This document shows positions 37,053-54,116 of a stretch of 64,000 nucleotides of DNA, piece by piece (the stretch's first letter is position 1; the number at the start of each line of letters is the position of its first letter). Location of the stretch: positions 2,314,001 through 2,378,000 of the forward strand of contig NC_014212.1 in the NCBI RefSeq assembly GCF_000092125.1. The letters are read 5' to 3'. The notes beneath the pieces were generated by a model that was not told the origin of the DNA, made no database searches, and saw only the letters and a program-made list of their open reading frames with translations. Both the position numbers and the translations under genes were made by a program. The stretch comes from Allomeiothermus silvanus DSM 9946 (GTDB lineage: Bacteria; Deinococcota; Deinococci; Deinococcales; Thermaceae).

Positions 37053-37057
37053 GGAGG

Positions 37058-37122
37058 GTCGTACGTCCGACGCTATACGTCTTACACTGGGGTTTTTCCC
37101 TAGACGTTGGACGCAGGACGGA
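37058..37122. repeat. TACGTC-type repeat upstream of livF, copy 1
   Basis: Two arms (GTACGTCCGACGCTATACG and GACGTTGGACGCAGGACG) face each other around a GGGGTTTTTCCC loop. They are built from GACGTNN/TACGTC units. The element fills the 76-bp gap before livF. The second liv operon has a similar element in the same place (52546-52610). Confidence 0.55.
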
Positions 37123-37128
37123 GGGTTT

Positions 37129-37878
37129 ATGAGCATCCTCGAGGTCAACCACCTCACCGTCCGCTACGGGGCCGTGGAGGCCGTGCGGAACCTATCCCTG
37201 CACGTGGACAAAGGCGAGGCGGTGACCCTCATCGGCCCCAATGGCGCAGGGAAATCCAGCAGCCTTAAGGGGATCATTGGGCTGGTGCGCTCGAGCGGGA
37301 CAGTACGCTACCAGGGCCACACCCTCGCCCAGCAGAGCCCCGAGGCGTTAGCCGCTATGGGCATGGTGCTGGTGCCGGAGAAGCGCGAACTCTTCGCCTC
37401 GATGGAGGTGGAGGATAACCTCCTGCTGGGGGCCTTCAGCCGCTACCAGCGCGGCGAGAAAGGTATTCGGGAGGACCTCGAGCGGGTGTATTCCCTGTTT
37501 CCTCGGCTCAAGGAACGCCGCAAGCAACTCGCGGGAACCATGTCCGGGGGCGAGCAACAGATGCTGGCCATCGGGCGGGCTTTGATGGCGCGGCCTAAAT
37601 TGCTGCTTCTCGACGAGCCCAGCCTGGGCCTGGCCCCCCTCATCGTGCAGGAGATCTTCCGTATCCTGGGCGAACTCAAAAAGGAGGGGGTACCCATTTT
37701 GCTGGTGGAGCAAAACGCCCGCATGGCCCTCAAGCTGGCCGACCGGGGATACGTGCTCGAGGCCGGAGAGCTGGTGATGGAAGGGCGGGGCCAAGACCTC
37801 CTGCACGACCAGCGGGTGGTCGAATCCTACTTGGGAATCCGCGCCACGGAAGAGGCGACGTCCAACGCCGAGCGCTAG
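37129..37878 (+). CDS. ABC transporter ATPase, LivF type
   Basis: The product has 249 residues with Walker A GPNGAGKSSSLKGI, signature TMSGGEQQMLAIGRALMARP and Walker B LLLLDEPSLGLAPL. It is the second ATPase of the importer formed with the three preceding genes. The C-terminus has ATEEATSNAER, possibly from the same dispersed repeat family. paaI follows 11 bp later. Confidence 0.92.
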   Translation: MSILEVNHLTVRYGAVEAVRNLSLHVDKGEAVTLIGPNGAGKSSSLKGIIGLVRSSGTVRYQGHTLAQQSPEALAAMGMVLVPEKRELFASMEVEDNLLLGAFSRYQRGEKGIREDLERVYSLFPRLKERRKQLAGTMSGGEQQMLAIGRALMARPKLLLLDEPSLGLAPLIVQEIFRILGELKKEGVPILLVEQNARMALKLADRGYVLEAGELVMEGRGQDLLHDQRVVESYLGIRATEEATSNAER

Positions 37879-37889
37879 GGGGCAGAGAT

Positions 37890-38267
37890 ATGTCTGACCC
37901 GTTTATGCACCTGTTGGGCATCGAAGTCTGCTCGGTCGGGGCGGGACAGGCGCATCTCGTAGCAGAGGTCCGCCCTCAGCACCTCAACATCCACGGAACC
38001 TGCCACGGGGGGTTCCTCTACAGCCTGGCCGACGCCGCCTTTGCCCTGGCCTCGAACTCGCACGGGGTCATGGCGGTGGCGCTTGCGACCCATATGGAGT
38101 ACTTCAAGGCCGTGCGGGAGGGCGACCGTCTAGAAGCCCGCGCTAGCGAGGAAAACCTGGGCCGCCACACCGCCACCTACCGAATCGAGATCGCACGGGA
38201 GGGCCAGACCGTGGCGCTATTTACCGGGACGGTCTACCGCCTGAGCGAAACCAAGGAGAAGCAATGA
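37890..38267 (+). CDS. paaI: PaaI-type acyl-CoA thioesterase
   Basis: The product has 125 residues with a hotdog fold: LNIHGTCHGGFLYSLADAAFALASNS is the PaaI active-site helix region (HGG followed by D). PaaI releases CoA from dead-end phenylacetyl-CoA derivatives and rescues the CoA pool. It overlaps the thiolase start by 4 bp (ATGA). Confidence 0.88.
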   Translation: MSDPFMHLLGIEVCSVGAGQAHLVAEVRPQHLNIHGTCHGGFLYSLADAAFALASNSHGVMAVALATHMEYFKAVREGDRLEARASEENLGRHTATYRIEIAREGQTVALFTGTVYRLSETKEKQ

Positions 38268-39472
38268 GCGAAGCATGGATTGTAGATGCCGTTCGTACCC
38301 CGGTGGGCAAACACGGAGGGGCGCTCGCCAGCGTGCGCCCCGATGACCTAGCCGCGATCCCGCTCAAGGCGCTGCTCCTGCGCAGCGGCATACCGGGAAG
38401 CGACCTCGAGGACGTCTACTTAGGTTGCGCCAACCAGGCTGGGGAGGATAACCGGAACGTGGCCCGCATGGCTCTGCTGCTGGCGGGGATACCCCAAAGC
38501 GTGGGGGGTTCGACGGTGAACCGGCTGTGTGGAAGCGGGCTAGATGCGGTAGCCTCCGCAGCGCGGGCAGTGATGTTGGGCGAAGGGCAAGCCTATATCG
38601 GCGGGGGTGTGGAGAGCATGAGCCGCGCTCCCTGGGTGATGCCCAAAGCCGAGCGGGCCTTCCCCACCGGTAACGTCACGGTCTATGACACCACCCTGGG
38701 CTGGCGCTTCATCAACCCCAGGATGCAGGAGCTATACGGCAGCGAATCCATGGGTGAGACCGCCGAGAACCTGGCCGAGCTATACCGAATCTCCCGGGAG
38801 GCGCAGGACAAGTTCGCCCTGCGCTCGCACCAAAAAGCCATCGCCGCCCAGCAGGGCCATGGCTACGCTGAGGAGATCGTCTCGGTGGAGGTCAAAGACC
38901 GCAAGGGCAACATCCTTCAGGTCAAAACCGATGAGGGGCCCCGGGCCGACACCAGCCTGGAAGCCTTAGCCAAACTCAAGCCAGTGTTTCGCCCAGGCGG
39001 GAGCGTGACCGCCGGGAACAGCTCGAGCCTCAACGACGGGGCCGCTGCAGTGCTGGTGGTGTCAAGGGAGTATGCCCAAGCCCACGGGCTAAAGCCACTG
39101 GCGCGGGTAAGGAGCATGGCCGTAGCCGGGGTTGAGCCCCGGATTATGGGCATCGGGCCGGTTCCAGCTTCCAAGAAGGCCTTGGAACGGGCCGGGCTGA
39201 AGCTCTCCGACCTGGGGGTAATCGAACTCAACGAGGCCTTCGCTGCCCAAAGCTTGGCGGTGCTGCACGACTGGGACTTAGACCCCGAAGATCCCCGCCT
39301 CAACCCTAACGGCGGGGCCATCGCCATCGGTCACCCTCTCGGCGCTTCGGGCGCGCGGATCCTGACCACGCTCCTTTACGAGATGCGCCGCCGGGATGCC
39401 CAGTTTGGAATGGCGACGATGTGTATTGGGGTGGGGCAGGGGATCGCGATGGTGGTGGAGAATGTGCGCTGA
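38264..39472 (+). CDS. paaJ: Thiolase, PaaJ/PcaF type
   Basis: The product has 402 residues with the nucleophilic Cys in STVNRLCGSGLDAVASAARA, His in NPNGGAIAIGHPLGASGAR and the second Cys in MATMCIGVGQG. In phenylacetate catabolism PaaJ cleaves 3-oxoadipyl-CoA and the dehydrosuberyl precursor. Neighbours paaI and paaK support this. Other degradative thiolases look alike. Confidence 0.88.
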   Translation: MSEAWIVDAVRTPVGKHGGALASVRPDDLAAIPLKALLLRSGIPGSDLEDVYLGCANQAGEDNRNVARMALLLAGIPQSVGGSTVNRLCGSGLDAVASAARAVMLGEGQAYIGGGVESMSRAPWVMPKAERAFPTGNVTVYDTTLGWRFINPRMQELYGSESMGETAENLAELYRISREAQDKFALRSHQKAIAAQQGHGYAEEIVSVEVKDRKGNILQVKTDEGPRADTSLEALAKLKPVFRPGGSVTAGNSSSLNDGAAAVLVVSREYAQAHGLKPLARVRSMAVAGVEPRIMGIGPVPASKKALERAGLKLSDLGVIELNEAFAAQSLAVLHDWDLDPEDPRLNPNGGAIAIGHPLGASGARILTTLLYEMRRRDAQFGMATMCIGVGQGIAMVVENVR

Positions 39473-39507
39473 AAGAATTTTCTTTGCGTACGACCGGTGA
39501 GGTGAAT

Positions 39508-40857
<1,350 letters not shown>

Positions 40858-41661: not shown

Positions 41662-42273
41662 GTGACCCGGCTACCTTTATTCCCCCTACCGGAAACCGTG
41701 GTGTTCCCGGGACTGTTGATACCGCTACTCATCTTCGAAGAACGCTACAAGCAAATGACCAAAGATCTGCTGGCCCTGCCTGAGCGGGAGCGTAGATTCG
41801 TCATCACCCTGGCCGGTCCAGAGCCAGGTCAGATGCGCTCGATAGGTGGAATTGTCGAGGTAATGGCGGTATCGGAGAACCCTGACGGCACCTTCACTAT
41901 GCTCACCCGGGGCACTGAGCGCTGCCGGGTTGAGGATATCGACTCCAGCCAACACCCCTACCTCTCGGTCCCCGAGAAGCTTTACCCCCTCGAGCGCGGC
42001 GATCTGGCCGCGGAGCGCATCGCCGCTTGGGACACCATGGAAGCCTTCCGGGCTTTCTCCCAGGGGCGCATGGACCCCAAGGCGCTGGAGCAGGCCATCC
42101 ATAACCTGCCGGACGATCCGCTGTACCATGCCTCATTTTTGTGTGTCAATCTCGGCGCGGATGCCCCCTCACGGCAGTACCTGCTCGAGGCTCCCTCGCT
42201 GCTGGAGCGCTTTGCGCGGGTGCAACGGTTTATCCAGCAGTTCCAGCAGCCGGGGGGTTCGGTTTCAGCTTAG
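41662..42273 (+). CDS. Lon N-terminal-domain protein
   Basis: The product has 203 residues, GTG start. The Lon substrate-binding domain is clear: RLPLFPLPETVVFPGLLIPL, then IFEERYKQMTKD and GTFTMLTRGTERCRVEDI. It has no ATPase or protease part. Stand-alone LonN proteins are widespread with no settled function. A TACCCT box 6-7 bp before the GTG suggests a leaderless mRNA. The last 44 bp overlap the convergent regulator gene. Confidence 0.8.
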   Translation: MTRLPLFPLPETVVFPGLLIPLLIFEERYKQMTKDLLALPERERRFVITLAGPEPGQMRSIGGIVEVMAVSENPDGTFTMLTRGTERCRVEDIDSSQHPYLSVPEKLYPLERGDLAAERIAAWDTMEAFRAFSQGRMDPKALEQAIHNLPDDPLYHASFLCVNLGADAPSRQYLLEAPSLLERFARVQRFIQQFQQPGGSVSA

Positions 42274-44992
42274 TTCTGCGCGCCTCGGCCTGCGCTAAAA
42301 GCAACGCGTTGGGCTCGAGACCCAGTTCGCGCAAGGCCTGGGTATGGATAGCCCAGGCTACCTCGGCCCGCGCGGTACGTAGCAGACGCTCGACCAGCGG
42401 CTCGTCCAATGGATCCAGGCGGAGGGCTTCCAGCAGGGCTTCCTCGTCGCCGCGGCGGAGTATTCCTTCGCGGTAGCGCGCAGTGATCTCCGTCCCAGCG
42501 GCTTCCAATAGAGGATGCTCGAGCCCCGCAAAAGGGGGGGCAAAAGCGCAGTGAAGGGTCGCTAGACCCTCGGCGGTGCGGGATCCCAAGCCATCGAACT
42601 CCCATAGGTCTACCTTCAGTTCGGGCACGCGCACCAGGCCATACGGCTTGCAAAAATACCCCCGAGCGCGCGGGGGGCGACCCGGCTCTAAGAGGTGCAA
42701 TAGCTCCGACCACAGCACCCGAAATTCGCCGTCCGATACCTCCAGCGCCTCCATCAACTCCTCCTTGCTCCAATCCCGTAGCAACAACAAAGCCAGCAGA
42801 AGCTGGGTTTTCTCCCGCCTGAAGCGCACCGCCTGGCCGTTCACCGCGACCGATAGCCCTCCCAAGGCCCGTATCTCCACCCGCACTCCGGGATGGTAGG
42901 CTACCTCGAGCTGCCCCATCTCCCATAGCAGGCGACGCACCCGCTCAATGGGAGGAGCAAACAGCGTGGCCTCGCCCAGGAAAGGGTAGCGCTTCAGGGT
43001 CGCCGCACCCCCTTGGTCCCAAGGGTATACCGCGGCTAGCTCGAGCAAAAACGGATCCTGTACGGCTAGGGCCGGCAAGGCAAAGGTCTTCCCCTGGCGC
43101 AGCCGGGCATAGGCTACGGTGAGGGTGATGAAGGCTTCCACCCAGGCGTCACCGGATTCCCGCGCTAACTGCACCATTTCCGTGTACGCGGCGTCTTCGC
43201 CGGTAGCCGCCACCCCCCCGAGCGCCTCCACCTTGAGCCGCCCGGGACCGCCCTCAGCTAGCGAGAGCGCCCGCTCGTAGGCAGCTCGAGCCTCCTCCCA
43301 GCGGTTTTGCGCCAACAGGGCGTGGCCCAGCCGAGCCTCCGCCAGCGCCACCACGAAAGGGCTGCCCATGGCCTCGCCCTGCTTTCTCCCGCGCAAAGCA
43401 GCGGCCATAGCGGCTTGGGCATTCCCGGCGACGGCTTCGAGCAGCGAGAGCAGCAGCGTGTCTTCGCGGTGATTCTTGGGCGGGCGATCAGCCGGGAAGA
43501 CCGGGGTGATTCCTACCCCGCTGCGCGGTGAGCTAAGCGTCTCCCGCAGCAACTCGAGCGCCTGGACGGGCTGTCCGCTACGCAGCAGCACTCTGGGTCC
43601 GGTCAGTCCGAGTGCCACGGCCTCCTCCACCCGGCCCGCATTGAGCAGGTTCTCCGCCCGCAATGCCCGCGCTGCCTCGGGAAATTGGGCTTGGGCTGCG
43701 TCCAGATAGGGCCACGCCTTAGCGGGTTCTACCGTATCGAGGTAAAGGCGCGACAACCCCAACCAGGCCCGCTCCACCCCCGCTGCCCGCGCCTCCTGGT
43801 AGGCCGCCTCGGCTTGGGCGTAGCGCCCGGCATGGCGCAAGGCTTCGGCGCGCAAGTAGATGAGTTCAGGCCGGGCTCGCACCAGCGCATCAGGCATCCG
43901 GTCCAACAAACCCAAAACGGTGTGCATAAGCCCCGAGGCCAGCCAGCTTTCGCCTTGTTGCAACAGCAGATCCGCCGCGTGGCCTAACCGCCCGGCCTCC
44001 AGCAAATACCCCGCCGCCCTTACCCCTTCCCCGCGCGCCATCGCTGCATCCGCGGCCTTGCTGAGCAGACTCCGGGTCTCGGCGGGCTCGAGCGTGCCCA
44101 TCAAGGCCCGGCGTACCAGGGGGTGGAAGCGCAGCCGAGAGCCCACGCGCTCGAGCAGGAGGTCTTCGGCGTAGAACTCGAGATCGACGTCGGGGATACC
44201 CAAGAGTTCTGCCTCCTCCGGCCCAAACTCCCCCAGCACGCTCGCCCGAGCCGCCCGTTTCTGCACCTCCTCGGGCAGCCCCGGCAACAAATAAGCCAGC
44301 AGGCCAGCTGCGTCGGGATGGGCATAGAAAGCTTCCTCCGGCTGGATGCCCCGCCGCATAGCCCGCAATAACAGACGTAGCCCCAGCGGCCAGCCCCGCA
44401 CCAGGCTATGAGCCCGCTCCACCTCGAAAGCCGGGAGTTCGGGGGTCAGGGCTCGAGCCAGCAAGAGCGCCTCGTTGGGGTCAAAGGCCAGCTCCGCTTC
44501 ACCGATGACCCGCCCCAGCACCTCCCAGGGGGCTGCCCGGCGGGAAAGGATAGCCACGCTCAGGTTGGGGGATTGGGCCAGGGTACGTACGAACGCCACC
44601 GCCTCGCGGCTCGCGGCCCGCTGCGCCTCGTCCAAGACCAGGGTGTGGGGCTCGAGCGCGCTCACCTCCTCTAACAATGCCTCTCCCGCTAACGTCCAGG
44701 CGCCGCGCTCGAGGGCCTGTTCAATTTCGCCCGGGTTTTCCAACTGGGGGCGGTAAGCCTCAAGCAAATGCCAGCCCAGCACCACTGGGTCTTTGGCCTC
44801 TTCCCCGAGGGAAAGCCATAGCCCGCCGTAGGAAGCCATAAGGGTAGACTTCCCGTAACCCGCCCCCGCTGCCAGCACCAGCACCGGGCTTTTGGGGAAG
44901 CCCTGGCGGAGGGTATGCAAGAGCCGCTCCCGGCGTACTTCACGGGCGGTGCGCGGGGGAAGCAGACGGCTCTTGGGCACACGGTAGGGCAT
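42230..44992 (-). CDS. STAND-ATPase regulator with C-terminal SARP/BTAD domain
   Basis: The product has ~920 residues from the ATG at 44992 (MPYRVPKSRLLPPR). Walker A is AGAGYGKSTL (about 42-51) and Walker B TLVLDEAQRA. A MalT-like helical arm and TPR-like helices follow. A winged-helix domain (ALGGLSVAVNGQAVRFRREK) at ~705-770 is followed by a bacterial transcriptional-activation domain to ~900. SARP-type activators bind direct repeats spaced 11 bp near the -35. Such repeats lie in the 97-bp gap to the divergent acyl-CoA operon, the probable target. The inducer is unknown. Alternative start: 45049. Confidence 0.85.
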   Translation of the reverse strand: MPYRVPKSRLLPPRTAREVRRERLLHTLRQGFPKSPVLVLAAGAGYGKSTLMASYGGLWLSLGEEAKDPVVLGWHLLEAYRPQLENPGEIEQALERGAWTLAGEALLEEVSALEPHTLVLDEAQRAASREAVAFVRTLAQSPNLSVAILSRRAAPWEVLGRVIGEAELAFDPNEALLLARALTPELPAFEVERAHSLVRGWPLGLRLLLRAMRRGIQPEEAFYAHPDAAGLLAYLLPGLPEEVQKRAARASVLGEFGPEEAELLGIPDVDLEFYAEDLLLERVGSRLRFHPLVRRALMGTLEPAETRSLLSKAADAAMARGEGVRAAGYLLEAGRLGHAADLLLQQGESWLASGLMHTVLGLLDRMPDALVRARPELIYLRAEALRHAGRYAQAEAAYQEARAAGVERAWLGLSRLYLDTVEPAKAWPYLDAAQAQFPEAARALRAENLLNAGRVEEAVALGLTGPRVLLRSGQPVQALELLRETLSSPRSGVGITPVFPADRPPKNHREDTLLLSLLEAVAGNAQAAMAAALRGRKQGEAMGSPFVVALAEARLGHALLAQNRWEEARAAYERALSLAEGGPGRLKVEALGGVAATGEDAAYTEMVQLARESGDAWVEAFITLTVAYARLRQGKTFALPALAVQDPFLLELAAVYPWDQGGAATLKRYPFLGEATLFAPPIERVRRLLWEMGQLEVAYHPGVRVEIRALGGLSVAVNGQAVRFRREKTQLLLALLLLRDWSKEELMEALEVSDGEFRVLWSELLHLLEPGRPPRARGYFCKPYGLVRVPELKVDLWEFDGLGSRTAEGLATLHCAFAPPFAGLEHPLLEAAGTEITARYREGILRRGDEEALLEALRLDPLDEPLVERLLRTARAEVAWAIHTQALRELGLEPNALLLAQAEARRTKLKPNPPAAGTAG

Positions 44993-45029
44993 TGCATCCA
45001 GTTTAACCGCATCCCCAGTACGCCCACCT

Positions 45030-45063
45030 TTGTAACAAGCTTGTAACAACCACCCGATAGACT
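45030..45063 (+). promoter_or_regulatory. SARP-type direct repeats and -10 of the acyl-CoA operon
   Basis: TTGTAACAA occurs at 45030-45038 and 45041-45049, an 11-bp period. TAGACT at 45058-45063 is a good -10. No separate -35 fits, and the second repeat (TTGTAA) sits 11 bp from the -10. This is the arrangement described for SARP activators. The two repeats also form a near-palindrome centred on AAGCTT. Confidence 0.65.
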
Positions 45064-45089: not shown

Positions 45090-46100
45090 ATGGCTTACCT
45101 CAGCGGCCTAGGGGTCTATCTACCCGTTCCACGCATGACCAGCGGCGAAATCGCCCTGCGGTCAGGGCTGCCGGAATGGGTGGTGCGGGAGAAGCTGGGC
45201 ATCCACCAAAAACCCGTACCCGGCCCCGGCGACGACCCCGCCAAGATGGCCGCCAAGGCGGCTGCAGAAGCCCTGAAAGATGCCGGGGTAAGCGGTGCGG
45301 AGGTAGACGTGGTGCTCTCCATCGTCGAGGAGTACAAAGATTACCCGGTGTGGACGAGCGCGCCCTACATCGCGCTAGAGGTCTTTGCAGACCGGGCCTG
45401 GGGCTTCGATATCAACCAAAAGTGCGCTAGCTTTATCACCGCCCTCACCGTAGCCCAGGGGCTTTTCGCCGCGCGGCCCGAGGTGGAGGTGATCCTGGTA
45501 GCCGGGGGCTACCGCAACGGCGATCTGATCGACTATACCGACGAAAACGTGCGCTTCATGTACGATCTGGCGGCGGGCGGGGGGGCAGCCGTCCTAACCC
45601 GCGAAGGACCGGGGATCAAGCTCCTGTCTACCCGGCTCAAAACCGACGCGGTGCTGGCCCAGAGCGTGCTGGTCCCGGTGGGCGGAACCGCCGCGCCCGT
45701 CACCCCGGAAAATGCCGGGCAGTTCAAGCTGCGCGTGACCAACCCCGAGTGGATGAAGACCCGGCTCGAGGCCGTCTCCCTGCCGGGTTTCTTCGAGGTC
45801 ATCCAGGGGTCTTTGCACGACGCCGGATATACTGCCGCCGACCTCGACTACCTGGCCTTGCTGCACATGAAACCCTCGGCGCATCGGGCGGTGCTCGAGG
45901 GGTTGGGGATAGCGGAGGATCAGTGCATCTACCTGGCCGAGTACGGCCACTTAGGCCAGCTCGACCCCATACTTTCGCTCAAGCTGGCCCGGGACGCCGG
46001 AAAGATCGGCCCCGGCAGCCTCATCGGCCTCGCGGCGGCAGGGGTCGGGTACCACTGGGGGGCCGCGGTGCTGCGTTGGGAGAGGGAGCATGGAGCTTAA
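45090..46100 (+). CDS. KAS III / HMG-CoA-synthase-like condensing enzyme
   Basis: The product has 336 residues with a thiolase-superfamily fold. The nucleophile is the Cys in GFDINQKCASFITALTVA, the His is in LALLHMKPSAHRAVL, and the third motif EYGHLGQLDPILSLKLA has His-Leu-Gly where FabH has Asn. The N-terminus GLGVYLPVPRMTS and REKLGIHQKPV is KAS III-like. It is larger in spirit to HMG-CoA synthase than to FabH. Position next to an acyl-CoA ligase and MaoC points to a catabolic or acyl-CoA-condensing role, not lipid synthesis. Real substrate unknown. Confidence 0.75.
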   Translation: MAYLSGLGVYLPVPRMTSGEIALRSGLPEWVVREKLGIHQKPVPGPGDDPAKMAAKAAAEALKDAGVSGAEVDVVLSIVEEYKDYPVWTSAPYIALEVFADRAWGFDINQKCASFITALTVAQGLFAARPEVEVILVAGGYRNGDLIDYTDENVRFMYDLAAGGGAAVLTREGPGIKLLSTRLKTDAVLAQSVLVPVGGTAAPVTPENAGQFKLRVTNPEWMKTRLEAVSLPGFFEVIQGSLHDAGYTAADLDYLALLHMKPSAHRAVLEGLGIAEDQCIYLAEYGHLGQLDPILSLKLARDAGKIGPGSLIGLAAAGVGYHWGAAVLRWEREHGA

Positions 46101-47580
46101 CGCCAACTGGCTCGCCCGCCTAGCCCAGTACCACCCCAAGCGCCCGGCGGTCTTCTGGCGCGGGGGCTGGATCAGCTACCAGGAGCTGTATGCCCGGGCG
46201 GTGCGGGCTGCCGAATCCCTGGCTGGGCTGGGGATCGGCCAGGGGGAGCGGGTCGGGGTGCTGGGGTGGAACCATATCGGTTACCTCGAGCTATACTTCG
46301 CCGCGCCCCTCTTGGGCTGCATTCCTACCCTCTTCAACCACCGCCTATCCAAGACCGAGTTGCGCGGGCTGCTGGAGTACACCCGGCCTCGAGCCCTCTT
46401 CTATGGCGACGGGTTGGGAGAGCTAGCCCACACCCTGCATCCCGCCGCATATCCCCTCGACGACCTGGCAAAGCTGCCAGGAGCTGAGCTAGCCGCATAC
46501 CCAGCAGATCCGGAAGACCCAGGGCTGATCCTCTTCACCGGGGGCACCACCGGGCTACCCAAAGGCGCGCTGATTCCCTACCGGCAACTGCTCGCGAACG
46601 CCTTCCAGACCTGCATGAGCTGGGGGCTCTCCCCCCAGGACCGTTACATCGTCGCCACACCGATGTTCCACGCGGCCTTGAACGCCCTCTGCACCCCCCT
46701 ACTGTACCTAGGGGCGAGCGTGCTGATCCAGGAGAAGTTCGACCCTGCCGAGTACTTAGCTTGGGTGGGCGCACACCGGGTGAGCCTCTTGTTCTTGGTA
46801 CCCACCATGTACCAGATGCTCGCCAACCACCCGGATTTCGACCGAACGGATTTCTCCAGTGTGCGCTGGGCCATCTCCGGCGGCGCCCCCTGCCCGGCTC
46901 CGGTACGCGAGGCGTTCCGGGCTAAGGGCATTCGCTTCAAACAAGGCTACGGCCTGACCGAGTGCGGGGTGAACTGCTTCACCTTCGAACCTGACGAGGC
47001 CGAGCGCTACCCGGAATCCGTGGGGCGACCCATGCCCCACCTGTGGGCCAAGCTGATGGATGCGGAGGGAAAGGAAACCCACAGCGAAGGTGAACTCTGG
47101 CTCAGCGGGCCGACGCTGATGTCGGGATACTTCGAGCGCCCCGAGGACACCGCACGGTGTTTGGTCAGGCACGAAGGGCGTACCTGGCTCAGAACCGGCG
47201 ACCTGGCCCAGCAAGATGCAGAAGGGCGCTTCTACATCGTAGGGCGGGCCAAGGAGATGTTTATCTCGGGCGGTGAGAACGTCTATCCCATCGAGGTCGA
47301 GCGCGCCCTCTACGACCACCCTGCGGTAGCCGAGTGCGCCGTGCTGGGCGTGCCCGATGCCCAGTGGGGCGAGGTGGGTTTGGCGGCCATCGTGCTCAAG
47401 GCCGAGGCAGCCGCTCAGGGCGATAGCTGGGAAGAGGATATCCGGCGCTTCCTCCGTGGAAGGCTGGCTGGGTATAAGGTTCCCAAGCGTTTCGTGTTCC
47501 TGGAGGAACTACCCAAAAGCGGGCCCGGCAAAATCCTCAAGGCCGAGCTAGCCAAGCGCTTCGGAGGTCGAAATGCCTAG
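46090..47580 (+). CDS. AMP-forming acyl-CoA ligase
   Basis: The product has 496 residues with the P-loop LILFTGGTTGLPKGALIP, KQGYGLTECGVNCFTFEPDE and the C-terminal ISGGENVYPIEVERALYDHP with the catalytic Lys in SGPGKILKAELA. It activates a carboxylic acid to its CoA thioester. It overlaps the condensing-enzyme gene by 11 bp and the hydrolase gene by 8 bp, so the three are translationally coupled. Chain length or ring preference cannot be read from sequence. Confidence 0.88.
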   Translation: MELNANWLARLAQYHPKRPAVFWRGGWISYQELYARAVRAAESLAGLGIGQGERVGVLGWNHIGYLELYFAAPLLGCIPTLFNHRLSKTELRGLLEYTRPRALFYGDGLGELAHTLHPAAYPLDDLAKLPGAELAAYPADPEDPGLILFTGGTTGLPKGALIPYRQLLANAFQTCMSWGLSPQDRYIVATPMFHAALNALCTPLLYLGASVLIQEKFDPAEYLAWVGAHRVSLLFLVPTMYQMLANHPDFDRTDFSSVRWAISGGAPCPAPVREAFRAKGIRFKQGYGLTECGVNCFTFEPDEAERYPESVGRPMPHLWAKLMDAEGKETHSEGELWLSGPTLMSGYFERPEDTARCLVRHEGRTWLRTGDLAQQDAEGRFYIVGRAKEMFISGGENVYPIEVERALYDHPAVAECAVLGVPDAQWGEVGLAAIVLKAEAAAQGDSWEEDIRRFLRGRLAGYKVPKRFVFLEELPKSGPGKILKAELAKRFGGRNA

Positions 47581-48385
47581 AATCGCCATCAACGCTGCCG
47601 AACTCTATTACCAGATCGACGGCCAACCGCAGGATCCAGATCAACCGGTGTTGGTGCTGGCCAATGGCATCTTTCAGCGGGTCGAGGCCTGGGAGCCCTT
47701 AATGCCGCACTTGCCAGGGTTTAGGGTCTTGCGCTACGACATGCGCGGACAAGGGCGCTCGAGCATCCCCCCAGGGGCCTACACCCCCGAACTCCACGCC
47801 GACGATCTAGAGGCGCTGCTGGAGGCTTTGAACATCGAGCGCTACCACCTATTAGGCCTTTCCAACGGCGGGATCGTGGCCCAGGTTCACGCAGCGCGCC
47901 AACCCGCTGGCCTGCACAAGCTGATCCTGCTCTGTACTACCTCCCGCATAGATCCCTTAATCCGGGCTAAGGTCGAGAGCTGGCGGCTCGGGCTGGAATG
48001 GGGCAGTACGGAGGGACGACTTCGCGTCGCCTTGCCCTGGATTTGGGGACGGGCCTATCTCGAGGCCCATCCCGAGGTGGCCGGCGCAGCTTCGCTGGAG
48101 CAGATGAAACTCGCAGCCCCCACCGTGGAGGCCCAGCAAAACCTGATGGCCGGGTTCTTCACCCTCGGCGATCTGCGACCCCAGCTTCGCAGCGTCACCG
48201 CGCCGACCCTGGTGCTCTCGGGCCAGGAGGACCTGCTGTTTCCCCCCTTGTATGCCCAGGAGATTGCCCAAGCCATCCCGGGGGCAAAGCACCGGGTCTT
48301 ACCCCAAACCGGGCACGCCGCCCCGATCGAGGTGCCTGCCCTTTTGGCCCGGGAAATCCGGGAGTTTTTGGAGGTGAATGCGTGA
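47573..48385 (+). CDS. Alpha/beta hydrolase
   Basis: The product has 270 residues. The nucleophile elbow is GLSNGGIVAQVHAARQ, the acid lies in LVLSGQEDLLFPP and the His in LPQTGHAAPIEVPA. It resembles 3-oxoadipate enol-lactonase and related C-C or ester hydrolases. It overlaps its neighbours on both sides. It might open a lactone or cleave a 1,3-diketone in the pathway of this operon; this is an inference. Confidence 0.82.
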   Translation: MPRIAINAAELYYQIDGQPQDPDQPVLVLANGIFQRVEAWEPLMPHLPGFRVLRYDMRGQGRSSIPPGAYTPELHADDLEALLEALNIERYHLLGLSNGGIVAQVHAARQPAGLHKLILLCTTSRIDPLIRAKVESWRLGLEWGSTEGRLRVALPWIWGRAYLEAHPEVAGAASLEQMKLAAPTVEAQQNLMAGFFTLGDLRPQLRSVTAPTLVLSGQEDLLFPPLYAQEIAQAIPGAKHRVLPQTGHAAPIEVPALLAREIREFLEVNA

Positions 48386-48786
48386 GGTTTAGAGTCGGCG
48401 ATTCGGCCAGCTACACCCAGACCATCAGCGAGGCGAACGTGGCGATGTTCATCGGCGCAGTAGGGGACACCAACCCGCTCCATGTGGACGCGGAGTATGC
48501 CAAGAGGAGCCGCTTTGGCGAGCGGATCGCCCAGGGCATCTTGGTGGCCGGGTTGATCTCGACCTGTATCGGTACCAAGCTGCCAGGGGTGGGGGCGATC
48601 TACCTGGGGCAAAATCTCAAGTTCCTCAAGCCCACCAAACTAGGCGATACCATCACCGCGACCGTCACGGTTCAGGCCATTCGTGAGGACAAACCGATCC
48701 TCACGCTAAAGACCATCTGTACCAACCAGCACGGGGAACAAGTCATCGCAGGAGAAGCAACGGTTTTGTACGAGGAGGAAGCATGA
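48382..48786 (+). CDS. MaoC-type enoyl-CoA hydratase
   Basis: The product has 134 residues with a hotdog fold. The hydratase-2 motif is GDTNPLHVDAEYAKRSRFGE (Asp and His catalytic) and AQGILVAGLIS follows. It should hydrate enoyl-CoA to (R)-3-hydroxyacyl-CoA. GTG start overlaps the hydrolase stop (GTGA), and its own stop overlaps the next ATG. The downstream SDR could oxidise the (R)-hydroxy product. Confidence 0.88.
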   Translation: MRFRVGDSASYTQTISEANVAMFIGAVGDTNPLHVDAEYAKRSRFGERIAQGILVAGLISTCIGTKLPGVGAIYLGQNLKFLKPTKLGDTITATVTVQAIREDKPILTLKTICTNQHGEQVIAGEATVLYEEEA

Positions 48787-49943
48787 AAAGAGTCATCCTA
48801 GCGGTTTTCTTTGTCCTGATGGGCCTGGCTTTGGCCCAAACCAGTGTCCGGGTGGGTGTGCTCCTGCCCATTTCCACCGTGGCCGGTAAAGCTGCCTTGA
48901 ACGGCATCCAATTGGCCGCCGACCAGGTCAACGCTTCCGGAAAGGTAAAGCTCGAGCTGGTCGTAACCGACGACGGCAACGCCGCCGCTGCTGCCGTCCC
49001 GGCCCTTACCAAACTGATGACCGTAGACAAGGTGGATATCGTAATCGGCGGGCTCTCCTCCGGCGTGACCTTCGCGCTCTCCGGTCCGGTCAAGCAGTAT
49101 GGGCCCCTCTTCCTCTGTATCGGCGCAGCCAGCAGCGTGGTCGAGCAAGCTTTCAGCGGCTATGACCGCTTCTTCCACTACCACCCTTGGGACTACCATA
49201 ACGTCGCCGCCGCGATGGAGTTCTTCAAATACCTCTACCAACAGGAGGGCGCACGAAAGGTTGCCATTCTTTACGAAGACGGCCCTTTCGGCTCGGCAGG
49301 CATCCAAACCTACCAAGACCAGCTAAAGAAGGCGGGATTTGCCGTGCAGGCCGAACCTTTCAAATCAGGCTCGGGGAACTTCACCGCCACCCTCACACGC
49401 TTCAAGTCCTTCAAGCCAGACATCCTCTATTGGATTGGCTATGACGTGGATGCCCTGCCCATCGCCGCCCAAACCCGCCAGGTGGGCCTCGAGCCCAAGC
49501 TCATCTACGGCGCGCCACCAGCTTGGCCCGCCGGTTTTGAGAAGAATAACCTCTCCAACGACATAGCCGGCATGACCGCCTGGCTGCCATCGGTCGCCAA
49601 CAACGAGTCGCGCAAGTTTGTAAGCGCCTACCGCAAGAAGTACGGCGAGGTCACCGACGAGTACATGGCCCCGATGGGCTACACCATCGTGCTCTCCTTG
49701 GGTCGTGCCCTCGAGGCCGCCGGATCAGCGGACAAGGACAAGATCGCCGAAGCACTGGCCAAGGTACAGATGGATACCCCCTTTGGGCCGCTTTCCTTCA
49801 AACCCTCCGACACCGGTAAGACCAAGTACCAAGGCTTCAACCAGAGCATCTGGCTCCAGTTCCAGTACCTCGAGGGCTCCCGCCGCCCGGTCTTCCCCAA
49901 GGAGAAGGCTAGCCGTCCGCTGCGCTACCCCGGGAACTACTAG
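48783..49943 (+). CDS. ABC transporter substrate-binding protein (second set)
   Basis: The product has 386 residues with signal peptide MKRVILAVFFVLMGLALAQ and a type-I periplasmic fold (LLPISTVAGKAALNGIQLAA; VAILYEDGPFGSAGIQTYQD). A row of Tyr, Phe and Trp (FFHYHPWDYH) suggests an aromatic or hydrophobic ligand pocket; this is a guess. It probably delivers the acid activated by the ligase of this operon. Confidence 0.87.
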   Translation: MKRVILAVFFVLMGLALAQTSVRVGVLLPISTVAGKAALNGIQLAADQVNASGKVKLELVVTDDGNAAAAAVPALTKLMTVDKVDIVIGGLSSGVTFALSGPVKQYGPLFLCIGAASSVVEQAFSGYDRFFHYHPWDYHNVAAAMEFFKYLYQQEGARKVAILYEDGPFGSAGIQTYQDQLKKAGFAVQAEPFKSGSGNFTATLTRFKSFKPDILYWIGYDVDALPIAAQTRQVGLEPKLIYGAPPAWPAGFEKNNLSNDIAGMTAWLPSVANNESRKFVSAYRKKYGEVTDEYMAPMGYTIVLSLGRALEAAGSADKDKIAEALAKVQMDTPFGPLSFKPSDTGKTKYQGFNQSIWLQFQYLEGSRRPVFPKEKASRPLRYPGNY

Positions 49944-49961
49944 GCCACCCGGCGGCCTGCT

Positions 49962-50864
49962 ATGGAGCTGCTCCTACAAACCCTCATCAACGGCGTGCTG
50001 GCCGCCGGGATCTACGCCTTGGTGGCCAGCGGGCTGGCCCTGGCGGTAGGCGTGGTGGGCATCGTCAACTTCGCCCATGGCGAGTTTTTGATGATCGGGG
50101 CCTTTGTTTCCTACTGGATGTTCACCCGCTTCGGCCTCGATCCACTCCTCTCGCTGGGCATCGCTGCGCTGGTGGTCTTTTTGGTAGGGGCCGCTAGCTA
50201 CTATGGCCTAATCCGCCCAGTCCTCGCCGCGCCCGAACTCAACCAGATGCTCCTGACCTTCGGGCTCTCGGTGGCCTTGCAGAATGTGGCGTTGGTAGTC
50301 TTCGGGGCGCAAACCCGGGTAGTAAGCCCTCCCTACCAGGGCAGTACGATCAGCCTGGCGGGGCTCTCCTTCGGGGTTCCGCAGTTCGCGGCGTTTTTGC
50401 TCTCATTGGGCATATTAGGCGGGCTTTACGGGTTTTTGGGGCGCACCCGTATGGGCTTCGCGGTGCGGGCGGTGGCGCAGAACCGGATCGCGCCGGGGCT
50501 TTTGGGCATCGAGAAAGAGCAGGTGTACCTGCTCGCTTTCGGCCTCAGCGCAGCCATCGCTGGAGTGGCGGGGGTGATGCTCTCGGTACTGCTCTATGCT
50601 TCCCCCACGGTGGGCTTTGCCTATACCTTAAAGGCCTTCGCCATCGTAGTTATGGCTGGGCTGGGGAACCTGCGCGGGGTGATCCCAGCGGCGATGGTCC
50701 TGGCCTTGGCCGAAGCCTTTGTGAGTACCTACCTGCCGGGCGGAGGGGGCTGGGTGGAGGCGGTGTTTTTCCTGGTGATCTTCGTAGCGCTCACCTGGCG
50801 CAGCTGGCAGGATGTCTTGGTAATGCGCTGGAAGCGCGGATTAGCGGGGAGGAAGGCACCATGA
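49962..50864 (+). CDS. ABC transporter permease, LivH type (second set)
   Basis: The product has 300 residues and about eight helices, with NGVLAAGIYALVASGLALAV, GIVNFAHGEFLMIGAFVSYW and VMAGLGNLRGVIPAAMVLAL typical of LivH. It starts 18 bp after the binding-protein gene and overlaps livM by 4 bp. Confidence 0.9.
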   Translation: MELLLQTLINGVLAAGIYALVASGLALAVGVVGIVNFAHGEFLMIGAFVSYWMFTRFGLDPLLSLGIAALVVFLVGAASYYGLIRPVLAAPELNQMLLTFGLSVALQNVALVVFGAQTRVVSPPYQGSTISLAGLSFGVPQFAAFLLSLGILGGLYGFLGRTRMGFAVRAVAQNRIAPGLLGIEKEQVYLLAFGLSAAIAGVAGVMLSVLLYASPTVGFAYTLKAFAIVVMAGLGNLRGVIPAAMVLALAEAFVSTYLPGGGGWVEAVFFLVIFVALTWRSWQDVLVMRWKRGLAGRKAP

Positions 50865-51802
50865 TCCTGGTCGGGGTAGTGCTCCTCCTGGCGCTGTTTC
50901 TGCCGGGGCTGCCGCTAGGGGCGTGGCGGGCCTTTCTGCTCGACACGGCGCAGTTCGCCTTCATCGTTACCGGGCTGGCCATTGCCTGGGATCTGCTAGC
51001 GCGCACTGGTCAGCTCTCCCTGGCGCACGGGGCGTTCTTCGGGCTGGGAGCTTACGCGGCGGCTTTGGCGACACCAGGGCTGGGGACGATCCCCGCACTC
51101 TTGGTAGGGATGGCTATAGCAGCCACCTCGAGCCTGCTGCTCGGCCTCGCTACCTTGCGCCTACACGGGATGTACTTCGCCATCGCCACCTTGGCCTTCT
51201 CCGAGGTGATGCGCACCCTGGTACTCAAAGCGCAGTTCACCGGGGGCTCTATCGGCCTGCCGGTGCAGCCCGCTTTCGGAGGCCAGTTCCCACTGGGAGC
51301 CTATTATCTGGCGCTGGCGGTGCTAGCGGTGTGCGCGCTGGTAAGCCTGGGAGTGAGCCGGAGCCGCCTCCACTATGCGATGGCCGCCACCCGCCAGGGC
51401 GAAGCGGTGGCGCGGGTGCTGGGGGTACCGGTAGTGCGGATCAAGCTGCTGGTTTTCGCCATTTCGGCGGCTTTGTCCGGGCTCGCGGGCGGGGTGTACG
51501 GGATGAAAACCCTCTTCCTCACCCCTTATGATGCCTTCGGGCTGGCGCGGGCCGTGGAGGCCTTGGTCATCCCCATCTTCGGCGGGCTCTACACCACGGC
51601 GGGGCCGCTGCTGGGTGGGATCTTGCTGGTGGGGCTCGAGACCTGGCTGCGCCTACGCATCGGCGAGGGGTATCTGGTGGTGTACGGGGTGATCCTCGTA
51701 CTGACCATCCTCTTCCTGCCCAAAGGGCTCGTCGGGTTCGCTAGGTCGCGCCCCAAACCCACCCAACCTGCCTCGGGCACGCAGGGGGAACAGCATGTCT
51801 AG
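50861..51802 (+). CDS. ABC transporter permease, LivM type (second set)
   Basis: The product has 313 residues with LARTGQLSLAHGAFFGLGAY, MAATRQGEAVARVLGVPVVR and VIPIFGGLYTTAGPLLGGIL. It forms the membrane channel with LivH. The 3' end overlaps the ATPase gene by 8 bp. In the other operon this domain is fused to the ATPase. Confidence 0.9.
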   Translation: MILVGVVLLLALFLPGLPLGAWRAFLLDTAQFAFIVTGLAIAWDLLARTGQLSLAHGAFFGLGAYAAALATPGLGTIPALLVGMAIAATSSLLLGLATLRLHGMYFAIATLAFSEVMRTLVLKAQFTGGSIGLPVQPAFGGQFPLGAYYLALAVLAVCALVSLGVSRSRLHYAMAATRQGEAVARVLGVPVVRIKLLVFAISAALSGLAGGVYGMKTLFLTPYDAFGLARAVEALVIPIFGGLYTTAGPLLGGILLVGLETWLRLRIGEGYLVVYGVILVLTILFLPKGLVGFARSRPKPTQPASGTQGEQHV

Positions 51803-52526
51803 TGCGGTCATGCTGCAGCTTTCCGGGGTGACCAAGCGCTTTGGCGGTCTGGTGGCGGTCAACAACGTCAGCCTCGAGGTACGCCAGGGCGAGATCCTGG
51901 CGGTGATCGGGCCGAACGGGGCGGGAAAGAGCACCTTGCTGAACCTGATCAGCGGGCTCTACCCCACCGACTCCGGCTCAATGCGCTTTCTCGAGGCCGA
52001 CATCACCCTCCTCCCGCCCGAGCAACGCGCCTGGCGGGGCCTGGGCCGGGCTTTTCAGATCGTGCAGCCCTTCCCCGAGATGACCGTGCGGGAAAACCTA
52101 TTGGTAGGCGGCATCTACGGCAAGCCACGAACCTCCATGAAAACCGCGCACAAGGTGGTGGAGGATGTGCTCAGGCTGACCGGCCTGGAGCCCAAAGCCG
52201 AGACCCCGGCGGGCGAACTGACCCTGCTCGAGGACAAGCGGCTGGAGATGGCCCGAGCCCTCTGCACCCAACCCAAGCTTCTCCTGCTCGACGAGGTGAT
52301 GGCCGGGTTGCGGCCCGCCGAGGCCATGGAGGCGGTCGAGCTGGTCAAAAAGGTGCGCTCGAGCGGGGTCACGGTCTTGTTCATCGAACACCTGATGCCG
52401 GTGGTGCGGGCGCTGGCGGAGCGGGTGGTAGTGATGGACTATGGCCAAGTCATCGCTGAAGGTCGTTACGACGAGGTGGCGCAAAACGCCAAAGTGCGCG
52501 AGGCGTATCTGGGGAGGAGCGCGTGA
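51795..52526 (+). CDS. ABC transporter ATPase, LivG type (second set)
   Basis: The product has 243 residues: Walker A GPNGAGKSTLLNLISGLYP, switch and D-loop in KLLLLDEVMAGLRPAEAM, and FIEHLMPVVRALAERVVVMD. The signature region reads LTLLEDKRLEMARALC in place of LSGGQ, a known LivG-like variation. The Walker B DEV replaces DEP. A repeat-filled gap follows before livF. Confidence 0.9.
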   Translation: MSSAVMLQLSGVTKRFGGLVAVNNVSLEVRQGEILAVIGPNGAGKSTLLNLISGLYPTDSGSMRFLEADITLLPPEQRAWRGLGRAFQIVQPFPEMTVRENLLVGGIYGKPRTSMKTAHKVVEDVLRLTGLEPKAETPAGELTLLEDKRLEMARALCTQPKLLLLDEVMAGLRPAEAMEAVELVKKVRSSGVTVLFIEHLMPVVRALAERVVVMDYGQVIAEGRYDEVAQNAKVREAYLGRSA

Positions 52527-52545
52527 AAACGCTAGATGCCGAGAA

Positions 52546-52610
52546 GTCATACGCCGTACGCCGTATGCCGTACGCTAAATTGCGTAGGACGTATGACGTA
52601 CGACGTACGC
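52546..52610. repeat. TACGTC-type hairpin repeat upstream of livF, copy 2
   Basis: Two long arms (52546-52575 and 52582-52610) pair at about 17 of 23 positions around the loop TAAATT. Both are built of TACGCCG/TACGTC units. Together with a short flank the element fills the 109-bp gap between livG and livF. It is related to the element at 37058-37122. Confidence 0.6.
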
Positions 52611-52635
52611 CCGAGCTGCAAGGCTGGAGACCGAC

Positions 52636-53340
52636 ATGAAGCTTACCGTCACCGACCTCACCGCCGGATACGCCAAGGCCCAGGTGCTTTTCGGGGTGAG
52701 CCTCGAGGTTTCCCAGGGCGAACTGGTAGCGCTGCTAGGCGCTAATGGGGCTGGCAAAACCACCCTGCTGCGCACCGTCTCCGGGCTTATACGGCCCTGG
52801 GGCGGGAGCGTACAGCTAGACGGGCGCGACCTCAGTGGGCTTTCCGCCGCGAAACGCGCCCGGTTGGGCCTAGGGCACGTCCCCGAGGGGCGGCAGCTCT
52901 TCCCTCTTATGAGCGTCGAGGAAAACCTCCTGTTGGGAGCGGCTTTCCTGGCTTGGGAGGGCCGGCTGGAGAGCCTCGAGCGCATCTATGCCCTCTTCCC
53001 CCGTCTGGCCGAGCGGCGTAGGCAGCTAGCCGGAACCATGTCCGGGGGCGAGCAGCAGATGCTGGCCATCGGGCGGGCTCTGATGGGACGGCCTAAGCTT
53101 CTGATGGTGGACGAACCTAGCCTAGGCCTCTCCCCAAAGCTAGCCGAGGAGGTACTCCTGACGCTCTCGAGGGTCAAGGCCGAGGGCATCGGTGTGCTGC
53201 TGGTGGAGCAAAATGTGGCGCTTTCGCTCGAGGTAGCCGACCGGGGCTACGTGATCGAACATGGGAAGTGTATGCTCTCGGGCTCCGCAGCCGAACTCGC
53301 GCACGACGAGGGTGTGCAAAAGGCCTATCTAGCTTTGTAG
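52636..53340 (+). CDS. ABC transporter ATPase, LivF type (second set)
   Basis: The product has 234 residues with ANGAGKTTLLRTVSGLI, TMSGGEQQMLAIGRALMGRP and LLMVDEPSLGLSPKLAEEV. It completes the second importer. GGCTGGAGACCGAC precedes the ATG. The SDR gene follows after 17 bp. Confidence 0.92.
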   Translation: MKLTVTDLTAGYAKAQVLFGVSLEVSQGELVALLGANGAGKTTLLRTVSGLIRPWGGSVQLDGRDLSGLSAAKRARLGLGHVPEGRQLFPLMSVEENLLLGAAFLAWEGRLESLERIYALFPRLAERRRQLAGTMSGGEQQMLAIGRALMGRPKLLMVDEPSLGLSPKLAEEVLLTLSRVKAEGIGVLLVEQNVALSLEVADRGYVIEHGKCMLSGSAAELAHDEGVQKAYLAL

Positions 53341-53357: not shown

Positions 53358-54116
53358 ATGCAACTGCAAGGGAAAACCGCACTTATCACCGGGGCCGGGA
53401 GCGGCATCGGCAAGGCCATCGCCGAGGTCTTTGCCCGCGAGGGCGCCAAAGTTATCCTCAATGACCTCTCGCAAAGCGGCAGCGAGGTCGCCCAGGCGCT
53501 CGGGGGAACCTTCATCCAGGCTGACCTCTCAAACCAGGAAGCCGTCAAGGATTTGGCCCGGAAGGCGCTCGAGCAAGGCCCAGTGGATATCCTGGTCAAT
53601 AACGCCGGGCTTCAGCGCATCCACCCGGTAGAGGAGTTTCCCGAGCAAACCTGGAACCTGATGCTCCAGGTGCTTCTCGGCGCGCCGTTTCAACTCATCA
53701 AGTACACCCTGCCGGGGATGAAGGCTAAGCGCTGGGGCCGTATCCTCAACATCGCAAGCCTGCACGGCCTGGTAGCCAGCCCCTTCAAGTCGGCGTACGT
53801 CTCGGCCAAGCACGGGCTGCTGGGCCTCACCAAAACCGTCGCGCTGGAGGTGGCCGAATACGGGATCACCTGCAATGCGATCTGCCCCGCCTACGTCAAG
53901 ACCTCCCTCGTCCAGGCACAGATTGCCGACCAAGCCCGCACCCTGCACATCCCCGAGAGCGAGGTGTTGGAGAGGGTGATGCTAGCCCCGGCAGCCATCA
54001 AGCGCTTGATCGAACCATGGGAGGTAGCCGAATACGCCCTGTTCCTGGCCTCCGACAAAGCCGGGGCCATCACCGGGTCGGCCCAGGTCATCGATCTGGG
54101 CTGGACGGCTCGATAA
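53358..54116 (+). CDS. SDR dehydrogenase, 3-hydroxybutyrate dehydrogenase-like
   Basis: The product has 252 residues. The cofactor motif is TGAGSGIGKAIAEVFAREGA, followed by NNAGLQRIHPVEEFPEQTWN, the catalytic Ser in LNIASLHGLVAS and YVSAKHG with Tyr and Lys. LQRIHPVEEF and NAICPAYVKTSLVQAQIADQ are close to (R)-3-hydroxybutyrate dehydrogenase. Together with MaoC it could oxidise (R)-3-hydroxyacyl groups. It is the last gene of the operon; a strong terminator follows 20 bp later. Confidence 0.88.
   Translation: MQLQGKTALITGAGSGIGKAIAEVFAREGAKVILNDLSQSGSEVAQALGGTFIQADLSNQEAVKDLARKALEQGPVDILVNNAGLQRIHPVEEFPEQTWNLMLQVLLGAPFQLIKYTLPGMKAKRWGRILNIASLHGLVASPFKSAYVSAKHGLLGLTKTVALEVAEYGITCNAICPAYVKTSLVQAQIADQARTLHIPESEVLERVMLAPAAIKRLIEPWEVAEYALFLASDKAGAITGSAQVIDLGWTAR

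Follow-up and report, generated by a model that had tools for sequence, protein, structure and literature searches.

Genes and Features of the Locus

The window, i.e., the whole stretch of 64,000 nucleotides from Allomeiothermus silvanus DSM 9946 analyzed here, contains a large STAND regulator gene and, transcribed in the opposite direction, an operon whose first gene is preceded by two 11-bp direct repeats and a -10 element (Table 1). Although the longest open reading frame of the STAND gene opens with a TTG, the conserved start is the ATG at 44992, and a TAAACT element or a near TAnnnT variant is found 7-8 nt ahead of this ATG in most orthologues from Meiothermus, Calidithermus and the genus of the window. 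The order of the importer genes of the operon is maintained in other genera, and the gene coding for the 3-hydroxybutyrate dehydrogenase-type enzyme occupies the same place at loci L175 and L179 but not at L176-L178 and L181. The operon brings together a ligase, a MaoC hydratase, hydrolases and an importer, to which some genera add a 3-hydroxybutyrate dehydrogenase-type enzyme; this set suggests that an organic acid is taken up and degraded. Positions 35283-40857 of the window, immediately ahead of the STAND gene, hold a second importer and acid-degradation cluster with LivGHM-type ABC parts, a PaaI-type thioesterase, a 3-oxoadipyl-CoA thiolase-like protein and a PaaK-type ligase.

Table 1. 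Features of the regulator gene, the intergenic region and the operon (window coordinates).
Feature	Position	Strand	Remarks
STAND regulator gene, 920 aa	42230..44992	-	divergent from the operon
STAND regulator domains			MalT-like NOD ~aa 1-300; TPR array ~303-691; SARP-like ~696-920
SARP-like C-terminal domain	42233..42907	-	modelled as OmpR-type winged helix + shortened BTA domain
Predicted recognition helix	42689..42733	-	aa 59-73 of the modelled domain
-10 of the STAND gene, TAAACT	45000..45005	-	7 nt ahead of the ATG; leaderless
Upstream direct repeat TTGTAACAAGC	45030..45040	+	invariant core GTAAC 45032-45036; predicted -40 to -30
Downstream direct repeat TTGTAACAACC	45041..45051	+	invariant core GTAAC 45043-45047; predicted -29 to -19
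-10 element TAGACT (TAnnnT)	45058..45063	+	constant 10 bp from the second TGTAAC
Predicted transcription start	45070	+	inferred from the -10, its last T set as -7
3-oxoacyl-ACP synthase III-like (NF005308), first operon gene	45090..46100	+	
Acyl-CoA ligase	46090..47580	+	
Alpha/beta hydrolase	47573..48385	+	PcaD-like, under the family cut-off
MaoC-type hydratase	48370..48786	+	start codon approximate
ABC importer, branched-chain-amino-acid type	48783..53340	+	binding protein, 2 permeases, 2 ATPases
3-hydroxybutyrate dehydrogenase-type SDR	53358..54116	+	TIGR01963 above cut-off

Direct Repeats in the Place of a -35 Element

Two copies of TTGTAACAA lie at 45030-45038 and 45041-45049, with an exact period of 11 bp and with 8 bp between the 3' copy and TAGACT. 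An earlier sequence-only reading of this DNA had described two such copies in front of a TAGACT -10; its positions and period are exact, and the observation is confirmed. The motif TTGTAACAA-N2-TTGTAACAA was seen in none of 100 dinucleotide shuffles of the window, and TGTAAC-N5-TGTAAC occurs a single time in the genome (3.72 Mb). The same reading had noted that no normal -35 is present, and indeed AACAAG, which stands at the 17-bp spacing upstream of the -10, does not qualify as such an element. This absence says little by itself, since most genes with the TAnnnT promoters reported for the phylum are devoid of a -35 (PMC12340547).

With the numbering placed on TAGACT, the two 11-bp units together extend from -40 to -19, exactly the stretch covered by the afs box, where two SARP domains of AfsR lie side by side and contact region 4 of the sigma factor (PMC10936776). 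The arrangement agrees with the definition of a SARP promoter given in that work, i.e., repeats with an 11-bp period situated in the place of the -35, the 3' repeat being 8 bp from the -10 (PMC10936776).

Each copy could also be read as a palindrome, TTGT-A-ACAA, reminiscent of a TetR- or FNR-like site. This reading was ruled out, as conservation does not extend beyond GTAAC and the flank to its left, and in Thermus the right arm turns into AACG. Since conservation is confined to the left part of each copy, the two copies are direct repeats despite their palindromic look.

Conservation of the Box and Co-occurrence with the Regulator

Among 61 related genomes, orthologues of the first operon gene were counted at E<=1e-60 and those of the STAND protein at E<=0.001; the former are present in 33 of the 61 genomes and the latter in 31, two of which are weak. 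A lack of the repeats in related genomes had been named by the sequence-only reading as evidence against an operator. The search of orthologous operons, which covered Thermus, Meiothermus, Calidithermus and others, revealed [T/G]GTAAC-N5-[T/G]GTAAC-N10-TAnnnT at the operon promoter of every genome that has both the operon and the STAND gene (29/29). Over these 29 orthologous promoters, full information content is reached by the two GTAAC cores and by the three fixed letters of the TAnnnT -10, and no column upstream of -42 exceeds 0.35 bit, the flank being unconserved. In the Thermus orthologues the ATG lies ~8 nt past the -10, which makes these genes leaderless, in agreement with the TAnnnT promoters described for the phylum (PMC12340547).

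Regulator, operon and box are all present in 28 and all absent in 9 of 37 Thermaceae genomes, a co-occurrence of STAND gene and operon for which the probability is 1/C(37,9) = 8e-9 if phylogeny is ignored. The pattern GTAACN6GTAACN10TAnnnT is found in 29/29 genomes with the STAND gene and in 0/9 Thermaceae without it, with ~50 sites in the 61 genomes vs. 2 for the reversed control. Beyond the 37 Thermaceae, genome G039 has both the STAND gene and the operon, and four genomes of another family, in which the STAND gene is absent, carry a more distantly related operon gene; GTAAC is wholly absent from the operon-gene promoters of these four genomes. Both this co-occurrence and the covariation between recognition helix and operator described below are confounded by phylogeny and G+C content. 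In G050, a genome of a related family, a TetR-type gene precedes the operon gene (L060:890-1495), and the box and the STAND gene are both missing; this is a swap of regulator.

In ~12 genomes the STAND gene and the operon are immediate, divergently transcribed neighbours. In many Meiothermus genomes it is remote from the operon (255 kb in G013), and the box remains at the operon. The distance between the box and the -10 of the operon is constant, whereas the distance to the start of the STAND gene varies.

A Second Target Promoter

Within the genome that contains the window, the GTAAC pair with its -10 is found only at the operon and at a solitary alpha/beta-hydrolase gene (C1:2141444-2142502), the box of which lies at 2141384-2141415 and is likewise separated from TAnnnT by 10 bp. 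This second box is exact in 11 genomes, i.e., the window genome and 10 others, and has diverged in 2 more. At locus L181 (genome G015) the same hydrolase is encoded inside the operon, after the last ATPase gene (L181:9349-10395), and has no box of its own. A hydrolase gene that bears the box when solitary and that lies within the operon in L181 is as expected of one regulon.

Architecture of the STAND Regulator

The divergent gene, described from the letters alone as coding for a large STAND protein, encodes a STAND protein of 920 residues. In the full-length model (pLDDT 83.9), the N-terminus matches MalT (8bob; TM 0.72 of target) and the STAND-TPR protein 6mfv, and the C-terminus matches AfsR. 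G45, G47 and K48 of the P-loop are invariant. Pfam searches with single sequences and with 26 orthologues returned TPR and AAA-type matches only, and a Pfam scan found no receiver domain.

The further claim, that a winged helix and a BTAD domain form the C-terminus, fails by all sequence profiles and stands by a confident structure model. Among the families listed, the BTAD (PF03704) and Trans_reg_C profiles gave no match at E<=1 in the 26 orthologues, and a profile search of PDB sequences with the C-terminal domain gave no SARP match. An AlphaFold2 model of the aligned C-terminal 225 residues reached a mean pLDDT of 91.5, and a Foldseek comparison of this model with the PDB yielded six significant matches, all of them to AfsR (8hvr, 8k60) or EmbR (2ff4, 2fez). 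These matches cover the winged helix and the BTA part over ~250 columns, with moderate TM-scores of 0.48-0.54. The SARP-like domain was therefore revealed by the fold search alone, sequence searches having given nothing; as modelled, the domain has the AfsR/EmbR fold. Judging from the models, the regulator is a chimera in which a MalT-like sensor comes first and a SARP-like domain last. We use the name SARP-like because the protein resembles the family by its fold and operator and departs from it in three features, namely N-terminal position of the domain, recognition by profiles and a role in actinomycete antibiotic production.

In the predicted recognition helix, GEFRVL is invariant (26/26 orthologues) and is followed by SELL or SEAL in one group and by WEVV or WEVL in Thermus. 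The base 3' of GTAAC is A in 38/38 half-sites where the helix reads SELL/SEAL and G in 15/20 half-sites where it reads WEVV/WEVL. This covariation of helix and operator is only suggestive, as it follows a single split in the tree as well as G+C content.

Which Protein Acts at the Box?

The Pho box of Escherichia coli phoA has the geometry of the box described here, with direct repeats of 11 bp standing where the -35 would be, and the DNA-binding domains of OmpR-type proteins are related to the ODB domain of SARPs, so that a PhoB/OmpR-type response regulator might be thought to bind the box. It is nevertheless very unlikely to do so: the pstS promoters of the same genomes contain TGACA-N6-TGACA in 4/6 cases and the GTAAC pair in 0/6, the GTAAC pair with its -10 is limited to two promoters in the window genome, and the presence of the box tracks the STAND gene. 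The TGACA-N6-TGACA repeats, which have an 11-bp period and lie upstream of pstS-type genes (L205-L208), are likely the Pho box of these genomes. Another BTAD protein could be the binder, given the 17 BTAD-profile matches in the window genome, and G031 has TGTAAC repeats although this STAND gene is missing there; similar boxes are thus usable by another protein. The exact N10 geometry, however, is missing from all nine Thermaceae without the STAND gene, of which G017, G024 and G031 were tested and found to have other BTAD proteins, and the divergent position of the STAND gene in ~12 genomes also speaks against another binder, which we regard as improbable.

A repeat due to chance, or a structural feature of the DNA without any regulator, could be envisioned from the window copy, which is quasi-palindromic and AT-rich. 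The 29/29 conservation between unconserved flanks, where none is expected by chance, refutes chance and leaves this explanation a negligible probability. There is also a low probability that the STAND protein, sitting on the box, represses the operon or its own gene. The box does lie between two divergent starts, nearly touching the STAND start codon at L018, and the operon promoter has a good -10. Yet a SARP-fold domain at -40 to -19 of a promoter without a -35 is an activating arrangement (PMC10936776), and where the STAND gene has relocated the box is still found at the operon; repression is less likely because the spacing of the box is constant to the -10 of the operon and not to the start of the STAND gene.

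A related promoter is conserved in Meiothermus (L065-L071, around base 1500), where TTAAGGTTTCTTAA and TGTAACG repeats with an 11-bp period lie 11 bp from TAnnnT. It drives a conserved short transcript that starts with ATGAGCAG and ends, in several genomes, with a hairpin and a T run; Rfam gave no match on the loci with this related TGTAACG box. This promoter is also found in G031, where the STAND gene is lacking. A search pattern whose gap to the -10 is set to 11 bp misses the site of the window and finds other promoters.

Proposed Mechanism and Its Implications

The operator is of defined form and position, is conserved, is linked to the STAND gene and stands at two target promoters. It is probable that the divergent STAND protein has these repeats as its operator; it would be an effector-gated activator of the operon and of the hydrolase gene, acting through sigma adaptation. 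The SARP interpretation of the sequence-only reading is supported, with binding and activation as what we infer. The STAND part would be switched on by ATP together with a small molecule, probably an acid or acyl-CoA on which the products of the operon act. Each repeat would then be bound by one C-terminal domain, the two lying side by side in the place of the -35, where they may contact region 4 of sigma in the fashion of AfsR. RNA polymerase would thereupon fire both the ligase/hydratase/importer operon and the separate alpha/beta-hydrolase gene. On a broader scale, we consider about evenly balanced the proposal that a MalT-type sensor exchanged its LuxR-type HTH for a SARP domain and became a family-wide, effector-gated catabolic activator that works by sigma adaptation on the leaderless promoters of Thermaceae, with a joint change of its operator and its recognition helix between Meiothermus and Thermus. 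A literature search returned nothing on point for SARP/BTAD proteins in Meiothermus or for STAND-BTAD catabolic activators.

If this mechanism is correct, activation by a SARP-fold dimer in the place of the -35 is not bound to antibiotic clusters or to actinomycetes, and a domain at the C-terminus of a MalT-like sensor can carry it out. The regulon, with two targets in the window genome, would be predictable from sequence alone, and the operon promoter would offer a compact, well-defined inducible promoter for these thermophiles. The RNA polymerase of Thermus thermophilus is a standard structural model; since proteins of Thermus and Meiothermus also suit structural work, the whole complex should be directly testable.

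Comparison with Known Systems

A catabolic SARP in a thermophile had been expected to be unusual, which holds for the C-terminal position and the catabolic target but not for the mere occurrence of BTAD proteins. At E<=0.1, the window genome gives 17 BTAD-profile matches, many of them in open frames of ~1000 aa, and thus possesses an expanded set of large STAND-type regulators. In the two paralogues scanned in this genome the BTAD part is N-terminal, as in AfsR, and a search for 11-bp repeats near nine BTAD-match regions gave one weak pair and no pattern. DnrS of T. thermophilus is likewise a BTAD-type activator of a non-antibiotic operon in Thermaceae; it has GAF and BTAD domains, without a STAND part, and a role in nitrate respiration (PMC5748679).

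PhoB/PhoP Pho boxes are also 11-bp direct repeats in the place of the -35, but their binder is a two-component response regulator and their letters differ in these genomes (TGACA). EmbR of Mycobacterium tuberculosis (2ff4, 2fez) has the winged helix and BTA fold seen in the model, together with an FHA domain and without a STAND part. PimR-type SARP-LAL proteins join a SARP part to a large ATP-binding part and bind direct repeats with an 11-bp period, but their SARP part is N-terminal and they belong to antibiotic clusters (PMC5930380).

AfsR of Streptomyces coelicolor (8hvr, 8k60), a large SARP with NOD and TPR domains, has the DNA-binding and BTA fold predicted here and acts on a promoter without a useful -35, where a pair of 11-bp direct repeats likewise covers -40 to -19. 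It differs in that its SARP part is N-terminal, whereas that of the Thermaceae protein is C-terminal, with a shortened BTA undetected by Pfam, and in the letters of its repeats and its target, an antibiotic regulator gene as opposed to a catabolic-type operon. MalT of E. coli (8bob), a catabolic activator, has the same order of N-terminal STAND ATPase, TPR-type sensor and C-terminal DNA-binding domain, although the Thermaceae protein scores only 56.9 with the NCBIfam MalT model (cut-off 537) and, in place of the LuxR-type HTH at the end of MalT, appears to carry the SARP-like winged helix and BTA domain.
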